Assembly (NCBI RefSeq): GCF_005771535.1
Contig: NZ_VANU01000002.1
Location: 372,001 to 436,000, forward strand
Length of the DNA: 64,000 bases
Direction of reading: 5' to 3'
Origin: Arcobacter arenosus
GTDB lineage: Bacteria; Campylobacterota; Campylobacteria; Campylobacterales; Arcobacteraceae
Shown: one piece after another, positions 40,919 through 51,506 of the stretch
Position numbering within the stretch: the first letter of the stretch is position 1
Layout of the letters: the number at the start of each line of letters is the position of its first letter
Notes under the pieces: model-generated
The model's input: only the letters and a program-made list of their open reading frames with translations
What the model was told of the DNA's origin: nothing
Databases searched by the model: none
Position numbers and translations under genes: made by a program

Positions 40919-40996
40919 CGGGGCGTAGCGCAGTCTGGTTAGCGCACCTGGTTTGGGACCAGGGGGCCGGAGGTTCGAATCCTCTCGCCCCGACCA
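40919..40996 (+). tRNA. tRNA-Pro (UGG)
   Basis: A cloverleaf folds with acceptor arms CGGGGCG and CGCCCCG, anticodon stem CCTGG/CCAGG around loop TTTGGGA (anticodon TGG), a GGAGG/CCTCT T-arm and an encoded CCA end. It is the first gene of a six-tRNA array. Confidence 0.97.
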
Positions 40997-41008
40997 TTTT
41001 TTGTAAGT

Positions 41009-41086
41009 GGTAGGTATAGCTCAGTTGGTTAGAGCATCGGGTTGTGGTTCCGAGGGCCGTGGGTTCGAATCCCATTACTTACCCCA
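41009..41086 (+). tRNA. tRNA-His (GUG)
   Basis: Acceptor arms GTAGGTA/TACTTAC pair with one G-T. The anticodon loop TTGTGGT gives GTG, between TCGGG and TCCGA. The G at 41009 can serve as the extra G-1 pairing with C73, the identity mark of tRNA-His. CCA is encoded. Confidence 0.96.
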
Positions 41087-41099
41087 TTTTTTATTTATT

Positions 41100-41176
41100 G
41101 CGTCTGTAGCTCAGCTGGATAGAGCACACGCCTTCTAAGCGTGCGGTCAAAGGTTCGAATCCTTTCAGGCGTGCCA
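41100..41176 (+). tRNA. tRNA-Arg (UCU)
   Basis: Acceptor arms GCGTCTG/CAGGCGT contain two G-T pairs. The anticodon stem CACGC/GCGTG holds loop CTTCTAA (anticodon TCT). CCA is encoded. It reads AGA/AGG, the dominant arginine codons in this AT-rich genome. Confidence 0.96.
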
Positions 41177-41248
41177 CTTTTATAGATTTGAGTTGATTTT
41201 TCAACTGAATCTTTTTTTTTGTCTTCTTGAAGACACTTTTTTAATGTT

Positions 41249-41333
41249 GCGGATGTGGTGAAATTGGTAGACACGCCAGACTTAGGATCTGGTGCCTCAC
41301 GGTGTGGAGGTTCGAGTCCTCTCATCCGCACCA
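41249..41333 (+). tRNA. tRNA-Leu (UAG)
   Basis: A class II tRNA with a long variable arm (TGCCTCACGGTGT). Acceptor GCGGATG/CATCCGC; anticodon stem CCAGA/TCTGG with loop CTTAGGA, anticodon TAG. CCA is encoded. Confidence 0.96.
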
Positions 41334-41368
41334 CTTTATAAAAACAAGCATTTCATATTATCTTGAAC

Positions 41369-41443
41369 TGGGGTATCGCCAAGTGGTAAGGCAACGGTTT
41401 TTGGTATCGTCATTCACAGGTTCGAATCCTGTTACCCCATCCA
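41369..41443 (+). tRNA. tRNA-Gln (UUG)
   Basis: Acceptor TGGGGTA/TACCCCA with a U1-A72 pair, typical of tRNA-Gln. Anticodon stem ACGGT/ATCGT with loop TTTTGGT gives TTG. CCA is encoded. Confidence 0.96.
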
Positions 41444-41465
41444 CTTTGGATAAAATCTTTCAAAT

Positions 41466-41542
<77 letters not shown>

Positions 41543-49912: not shown

Positions 49913-50687
49913 ACATGAAAATGAACAAAATGTAGGAGATTTAAAAAAAGGTGATAGAATCCTTTATTTAGATGATGTAACAGTTAGTTTTGATGGGTTT
50001 AAAGCTTTAAATTCTTTATCTTTATCTATTGAATATGAAGAGTTAAGATGTATCATTGGAGCAAATGGAGCAGGAAAATCAACAATGATGGATGTTATTA
50101 CAGGGAAAACTAGTCCTGATAAAGGGCAAGTTATTTTTGGGAAAGCTGTAAATTTACTTGAAATGGATGAGCCAAGTATTGCCGAAATCGGGATTGGAAG
50201 AAAGTTTCAAAAACCAACAGTCTTTGAGGGGCATTCAGTTTTTGAAAATCTAGAACTTGCAATGAAAGATGATAAAAGATTTTTCAAAACACTTTTTGCA
50301 AAATTAAATGGTGAACAAAAAGATAGTATTGAAGAGACGATGGAATTAATTGGTTTAAAAGATTTTTATAATACCCAAGCGGCTATTTTATCACATGGTC
50401 AAAAACAATGGCTAGAGATAGGAATGCTTTTAATGCAAAGCCCAAAGTTACTTTTAGTTGATGAGCCAGTAGCAGGTATGACTCCCGGTGAAGTTGAAAA
50501 AACGGGACAAATTCTAACAGAATTATCAAAATCACACTCAGTTGTTGTGGTTGAACACGATATGGAATTTATTAGAAGTATTGCAAAAAAAGTAACCGTT
50601 TTACATGAGGGTTCTGTTTTAGCTGAGGGTTCTATGAAAGATGTACAAGAAAATGAGAAAGTACGTAAGGTTTACCTCGGTGAGTAA
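49899..50687 (+). CDS. urtD: Urea ABC transporter ATP-binding protein UrtD
   Basis: A 262-residue ATPase from the ATG at 49899. A GTG at 49887 is an in-frame alternative. It has Walker A G-A-N-G-A-G-K-S-T, the variant signature L-S-H-G-Q-K-Q-W-L typical of UrtD, and Walker B L-L-L-V-D-E-P-V-A-G-M. The start lies inside the urtC end, so it is translationally coupled. Confidence 0.94.
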   Translation: MLLLKHENEQNVGDLKKGDRILYLDDVTVSFDGFKALNSLSLSIEYEELRCIIGANGAGKSTMMDVITGKTSPDKGQVIFGKAVNLLEMDEPSIAEIGIGRKFQKPTVFEGHSVFENLELAMKDDKRFFKTLFAKLNGEQKDSIEETMELIGLKDFYNTQAAILSHGQKQWLEIGMLLMQSPKLLLVDEPVAGMTPGEVEKTGQILTELSKSHSVVVVEHDMEFIRSIAKKVTVLHEGSVLAEGSMKDVQENEKVRKVYLGE

Positions 50688-50688
50688 A

Positions 50689-50802
50689 AAGCAAACACGT
50701 TTGCTCTTTAGGATTTTGCTCACTTTTAACAATTTTTCACAAATTGTGCCAAAAAGTGTTAAATATGTATTTGTCCCTTTTAAATTGGGACAATTTAAAA
50801 GG
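50689..50802 (+). promoter_or_regulatory. Structured leader between urtD and urtE with alternative hairpins
   Basis: Three structures fill this gap. (1) AGCAAA/TTTGCT around CACG (50690-50705). (2) CACTTTT/AAAAGTG enclosing ACAATTT/AAATTGT (50721-50758). (3) CCTTTTAAATTG (50776-50787) pairing perfectly with CAATTTAAAAGG (50791-50802), which contains the urtE ribosome binding site. TTGTCCC (50771-50777) also pairs perfectly with GGGACAA (50787-50793), excluding structure 3 and freeing the site. The layout resembles a translational switch. The ligand or trigger is unknown. Confidence 0.55.
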
Positions 50803-50810
50803 AAACTAAG

Positions 50811-51506
50811 ATGTTAGAAATTAAAAAATTAAATCAATTTTATGGACAAAGTCACACTTTATGGGATTTAGACCTTGAAATAAAACAGGGAAGATGTACT
50901 TGTCTTATGGGAAGAAATGGTGTTGGAAAAACAACACTTATGAAATCAATTATGGGCTTACTTCCAATAAAAAGTGGTGAATTGCTTTTTGAAGGAAAAG
51001 ATATCTCAAAACTTGGAAGTGAAAAAAGAGCAGGATTAGGAATAGGTTATGTACCACAAGGTAGGGAAATATTTTCACAACTAACTGTTAAAGAGAATAT
51101 TGATATTGGATTACTTGGAAATAGAAATGGCTTAAAACAAGTACCTGATAAAATATATGAACTTTTTCCAGTTTTAAAAGAGATGTTAAAAAGAAAAGGT
51201 GGTGACTTAAGTGGTGGTCAGCAACAACAACTTGCTATTGCTAGGGCACTTTGTTTAGAACCAAAACTATTGATTCTTGATGAGCCCGCAGAAGGGATTC
51301 AACCAAATATCGTACAACAAATTGGAGAGGTTATAGATTATCTTACTAAAGAGGAAAAAATAACTGTTATTTTAGTTGAACAAAAACTTCCTTTTGCTAG
51401 ACGTCATGGTGATGATTTTTATCTTGTTGATAGGGGTAGAGTTGTAGCTAATGGGGAGATTGAAAATCTAAGTGATGAAATAGTAGAGCAATATTTATCT
51501 GTATAA
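50811..51506 (+). CDS. urtE: Urea ABC transporter ATP-binding protein UrtE
   Basis: A 231-residue ATPase with Walker A G-R-N-G-V-G-K-T-T, signature L-S-G-G-Q-Q-Q-Q-L-A and Walker B L-L-I-L-D-E-P-A-E-G-I, the UrtE form. It begins 123 bases after urtD, unlike the tight spacing of the other urt genes. Its AAAAGGA ribosome binding site lies inside a strong potential hairpin. Confidence 0.95.
   Translation: MLEIKKLNQFYGQSHTLWDLDLEIKQGRCTCLMGRNGVGKTTLMKSIMGLLPIKSGELLFEGKDISKLGSEKRAGLGIGYVPQGREIFSQLTVKENIDIGLLGNRNGLKQVPDKIYELFPVLKEMLKRKGGDLSGGQQQQLAIARALCLEPKLLILDEPAEGIQPNIVQQIGEVIDYLTKEEKITVILVEQKLPFARRHGDDFYLVDRGRVVANGEIENLSDEIVEQYLSV

Follow-up and report, generated by a model that had tools for sequence, protein, structure and literature searches.

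The spacer between urtD and urtE of Arcobacter arenosus is probably one copy of a dispersed family of cis-acting leader RNAs of the Arcobacteraceae, in which the last hairpin (H3) would operate as a balanced two-state switch of the translation of the downstream gene. The window analysed, a stretch of 64,000 nucleotides of contig NZ_VANU01000002.1, presents as flanking genes urtA, urtB, urtC, urtD and urtE (NCBIfam assignments), with urtE located at positions 50811 to 51506 of the forward strand (TIGR03410, above cut-off). The gap preceding this gene, 123 nt long, had been singled out in a sequence-only reading as anomalous and attributed to a switch of urtE. Its unusual length is real, but the cause is the dispersed leader element that sits there and not a switch private to urtE.

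The element is a 5'-UTR RNA of about 120 nt (50686 to 50803, forward strand, as are all features described here), matched by model R1 with 101 bits and an E-value of 4e-19; this model was seeded with the urtE copy itself, the independent support being provided by the other copies. It opens with hairpin H1 (50690 to 50705), formed by the inverted repeat AGCAAAC/GTTTGCT with double-sided changes in 7/7 pairs, which is followed by a single-stranded CUUUAG linker (50706 to 50711; at least 90% conserved across 55 aligned copies) and by hairpin H2 (50721 to 50758), where inverted repeats build a lower stem (CACTTTT/AAAAGTG) and an upper stem (ACAATTT/AAATTGT) with double-sided changes in 13 of 15 pairs. 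H3 can be drawn in two states. In state X (50771 to 50793), the exact repeat TTGTCCC/GGGACAA pairs as a perfect 7-bp helix (arms 50771-50777 and 50787-50793) closing a 9-nt loop, and the Shine-Dalgarno (SD) sequence is left free. In state Y (50776 to 50802), the exact repeat CCTTTTAAATTG/CAATTTAAAAGG forms a perfect 12-bp helix (arms 50776-50787 and 50791-50802; 3-nt loop; double-sided changes in 11/12 pairs), the 3' arm of which overlaps and pairs the urtE SD, AAGGA (50799 to 50803), placed 7 nt ahead of the ATG at 50811. Both repeats had been reported from the sequence alone, with Y burying the SD, and a check of the sequence found them exact. The two states are mutually exclusive because they have bases in common; a pseudoknot with X and Y formed simultaneously was set aside by reasoning, given these common bases and the almost complete lack of a connecting loop.

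Taken alone, the urtE copy says little, as its spacer folds only mildly better than shuffled sequence (z -2.0 and -2.2). A single copy is therefore no proof of function, and comparative evidence is needed to decide. A scan of the window with Rfam 15 returned tRNAs only, with six tRNA genes lying in an ordinary cluster at 40919-41539, and ten copies of the element searched against the same database at relaxed threshold gave nothing but chance matches, all of them below threshold and lying outside it.

When the genus was searched at the DNA level with the urtE spacer, many partial and full homologues were retrieved at other loci. Once aligned, these have a common layout in which H1 and H2 are joined by a nearly invariant CUUUAG and followed by an A-rich linker and an H3 that ends in an SD shortly before a start codon. 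A covariance model built from 14 copies identified 24 copies in the A. arenosus genome (E < 0.01), 23 of which are directly followed by a start codon behind H3; in the remaining one (L155) H3 is split by an insert and the start codon lies 21 nt past the match. Across the genus, where the survey of 16 genomes was pattern-based, the H3 pattern gave 67 matches in 15 genomes against none for the reversed pattern, and a looser version gave 201 matches in 16/16 genomes against 40 reversed. When 397 genomes of the class were scanned with the H3 pattern, matches were found in 25 of the 43 genomes of the same family and in only 5 of the 354 outside it, for which the reversed control gave about 9. In two of these five outside genomes the site precedes rpmA and both helices are present. 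The two modules (L217 and L218), from another family of the same order, stand before this gene for ribosomal protein L27 in the absence of H1-H2, and the H3 switch may therefore be older or of repeated origin. Some copies consist of H3 alone, with no recognisable H1-H2 and several directly after the upstream stop codon; X and Y are kept in them, and thus H3 looks like the working core.

Individual copies show further rearrangements. A short second repeat, approximately TTCATAGCGNAGTCTTGTGNCGAACGAAGTGAAG, with self-complementary ends, is inserted at the H2 apex of L118 and L138 and inside the H3 of L155. Three copies of the A. arenosus genome (L156, L158 and L159) have a further small hairpin inserted after CUUUAG and ahead of H2; its arms vary from copy to copy and yet pair (GUGCGUGCAC, GUACAAGUAC and GUGCUUAGGCAC).

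The collection of H3 modules comprises 144 members preceding 82 protein clusters, with 4-11 nt separating the module from the start codon, which is ATG in 132 cases. A following start codon was required for entry in this set, so that the spacing is a finding while the presence of a gene is not, the unbiased view being that of the unfiltered model matches of the own genome. Comparison of the copies shows a fixed placement before start codons. In A. arenosus the genes concerned include cysK, ilvD, nifD, hisA, obgE and urtE, as well as those for a flavodoxin, a hydrogenase large subunit, a nitrate-type ABC ATPase, an ArgJ-like protein and a Rid protein; in other genomes they include ispH, hemE, sufC, urtA and the genes for transaldolase, acetaldehyde dehydrogenase, urease alpha and P-II. 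Some associations recur, namely with a HIT-type protein gene (8 genomes), ispH (7) and hemE (5), and one copy stands before dnaJ. Judged from this gene list, no common metabolite or single pathway accounts for the 82 clusters, and nitrogen genes are among them.

Evidence that the RNA structure matters comes from the way in which the copies vary. In an alignment of 73 distinct copies, 95.4% of the pair cells hold standard pairs, double-sided changes occur in 31 of 34 pairs (562 cells against 177 in shuffles) and the covariation score reaches 0.518, compared with 0.142 after shuffling and at most 0.136 for slid versions, these values coming from an alignment fitted to the structure, which favours covariation. 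The X helix was therefore tested separately without an alignment. Among 81 H3 modules gathered with no selection on X energy, requiring only a loose motif for the X 5' arm, swapping partners between copies weakened the X duplex (z -6.4, with 0/2000 swaps as good) and also the Y duplex (z -20.4), the result holding with one copy per gene. The X arms also occur as coupled types, GUUCC with GGAA(C) and GUCCC with GGGA(C) (15/2 versus 4/54; Fisher p 2e-10, and 2e-8 with one copy per gene), and the same table reads 29/4 versus 3/100 in the 144 modules, which were filtered on X energy; copies within and between genomes are related, so these covariation tests count related sequences repeatedly and overstate independence, and the joint conservation of X and Y is partly non-independent through their common nucleotides. 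Mutual information on the alignment yielded no convincing extra tertiary or pseudoknot pair beyond the known helices, only echoes of neighbouring ones, and outside H3 the fixed bases are limited to CUUUAG, UUUG and a few bases adjacent to the stems. On these comparative grounds, all four helices and the alternative X are shown to be, as far as sequence variation can tell, under selection for structure after insertion. The proposal that X and Y compete for the urtE SD is thus borne out by the repeats and by covariation across copies, seen in X as well as in Y where changes in relatives had been suggested as a check, and the further stems announced for the gap correspond to H1 and H2, both with compensatory changes.

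The computed behaviour of H3 is that of a poised structure. Mean energies at 37 C are -9.3 kcal/mol for X and -9.8 kcal/mol for Y, a near equality that may partly follow from the common bases, and Y gains in the cold, the mean Y-minus-X energy being calculated as -2.1 kcal/mol at 5 C and +0.1 at 50 C. When the RNA of the window copy is grown base by base, X has a probability of at least 0.98 up to base 50801 and Y takes over only when the SD is completed by bases 50802-50803, equally at 15, 25 and 37 C, in what are equilibrium calculations on the isolated H3 and not kinetics. The predicted accessibility of the SD is partial (0.2-0.8) in most copies. The model we favour is one in which the GC-rich X folds first during transcription, leaving the SD free, while the AU-rich Y, which takes the same nucleotides and the SD, could displace X only after the SD has been transcribed. 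The ribosome, or a factor acting via H1, the CUUUAG linker or H2, would capture X before or instead of Y and so set the level of downstream translation. We infer on this basis that translation is controlled in the cell, the direction of the effect included, and that H1 and H2 may be the sensing or binding part. In the leaders of the phage MS2 maturation gene and of hok mRNA, a hairpin formed early gives access to the ribosome site, which is closed again when the RNA refolds; the Arcobacter element resembles them in this early open hairpin and closing refold, with a timing that is here only computed, but differs in standing before many chromosomal housekeeping genes.

The comparison of occupied and empty gene junctions adds a different line of evidence. 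In 9 of the 12 genus genomes with urtE, urtD and urtE are abutting, about 5 nt or less apart, with the urtE SD within the end of urtD, and in more distant Campylobacterota the gap is at most 10 nt. An element of 122-123 nt occupies the junction in A. arenosus and in genome G005 (89% identical), whereas a third genome (G003) has a long spacer whose resemblance to the element is confined to about the last 20 bases. The two carriers are not sisters in the urtE tree, several forks of which are weakly supported. At hisH-hisA the element is present in A. arenosus, G006 and G008, while in 8 other genomes with the same upstream gene the gap is merely short and the SD plain. Since urtD and urtE abut in most relatives, these junctions show, at the level of genome comparison, an element gained or lost as a unit, and hisH-hisA likewise. 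Together with the dispersed copies, they led to rejection of a urt-specific switch, and the specificity for urtE assumed by the sequence-only reading fails on an element that is missing from this junction in most relatives.

The dispersed copies and empty sites are also features of a miniature mobile element, and it could be asked whether the family is in the main a selfish or neutral repeat, bringing an SD with it and causing little harm ahead of genes. The copies at urtE and hisA do come and go between closely related genomes, and one copy (L130, before hemE in G007) shows a partial tandem duplication of the element directly ahead of a full copy. This reading is nevertheless improbable in view of the compensatory changes seen in all helices, X and Y alike, and of the position fixed relative to start codons. 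Inspected by eye, the insertion sites showed no terminal repeats or clear target duplication, with a possible 3-nt TAA repeat at urtE and none at hisA. Spread as a repeat and regulation are compatible, and the regulatory leader favoured here could itself be spreading. A DNA operator, in which GTCCC-N-GGGAC is bound by a dimeric transcription factor, would account for X being a perfect palindrome with conserved half-sites; it is highly improbable and was rejected on spacing, G-U pairs and position, as the half-site spacing varies, the register of pairing is shifted in GUU-class arms, some of the pairs are G-U, and the SD marks the end of the site, which lies downstream of the likely promoters, with many copies inside operons. 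Control of CsrA type, acting on GGA motifs of the Y loop and the SD, is suggested by the GGA that most copies have around the Y loop, but copies with GGGUACC or GGGGCC lack GGA and still keep X. A family search, positive in control genomes, found CsrA (PF02599) and Hfq (PF17209) absent from 16/16 genus genomes, and both types of control were consequently rejected, that by CsrA having, barring an unrecognised homologue, almost no likelihood left.

The two remaining alternatives are established classes of regulatory leader. The element has in common with translational riboswitch platforms a 5'-UTR site, a structured upstream domain and mutually exclusive hairpins, one of them pairing the SD, and the alternation expected of a riboswitch, with exclusive hairpins hiding or freeing the SD, is found in the X/Y covariation. 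H1-H2 might then be an aptamer for urea, ammonium or another nitrogen signal and H3 its expression platform, as would suit the copies before urtE, nifD and the nitrate-type ABC ATPase gene, and before urtA in G006, the urease alpha gene in G003 and the P-II gene in G002. Yet most of the 82 families have nothing to do with nitrogen (ilvD, hemE, ispH, sufC, obgE, transaldolase and others), and a single ligand could hardly serve so many unrelated genes. In H1 and H2, fixed unpaired positions other than CUUUAG and UUUG are scarce, perhaps more so than would be usual in an aptamer, and H3-only copies exist. Such a metabolite riboswitch is thus very unlikely; the suggested sensing of urea or ammonium, or a role confined to the urt operon, does not fit an element that stands before 82 gene families with no relation to one another, almost all of them within a single bacterial family, and urea or ammonium is an unlikely trigger. 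An RNA thermometer, with the closed Y favoured by cold and the open X by warmth, is unlikely as well, if more plausible. With an AU-rich helix covering the SD, the element recalls thermometers of fourU type, and both SD zippers of this kind and the alternative structures of cspA type recall the two-state behaviour of H3, for which a computed Y-minus-X shift of about 2 kcal/mol over 5-50 C can be invoked. This shift is gentle, however, a simple zipper would need no conserved competing X, the element adds to its covarying competitor helix two extra hairpins, and the genes form no temperature-response or heat-shock set, despite the one dnaJ copy.

Full-text literature searches found no description of the element, an earlier listing in the supplement of PMC6429828 being possible. 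In that study, Stav et al. 2019 examined 38 intergenic regions of Arcobacter sp. L, a member of the same bacterial group, leaving most of the novel ones unnamed. No leader present in many copies and having alternative hairpins at the SD is described in the main text of the study; motifs in its supplementary material may overlap with the present family.

A broader interpretation, which we put forward tentatively and at somewhat less than even likelihood, is that the element represents a new class of portable leader RNA spanning the family Arcobacteraceae, that is, a copyable co-transcriptional two-state switch of the 5'-UTR that would insert between abutting operon genes, uncouple their translation and place dozens of unrelated genes under one shared signal without CsrA or Hfq. 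If this is true, bacteria lacking both proteins would possess a post-transcriptional regulon, so far unlisted, with some 20 or more genes in each genome. The copies would further provide naturally occurring two-state RNA switches of nearly equal energy, with evolved compensatory variants, suited to testing co-transcriptional folding and translation, and the occupied and empty junctions would offer a way to study how a regulatory RNA spreads through genomes.
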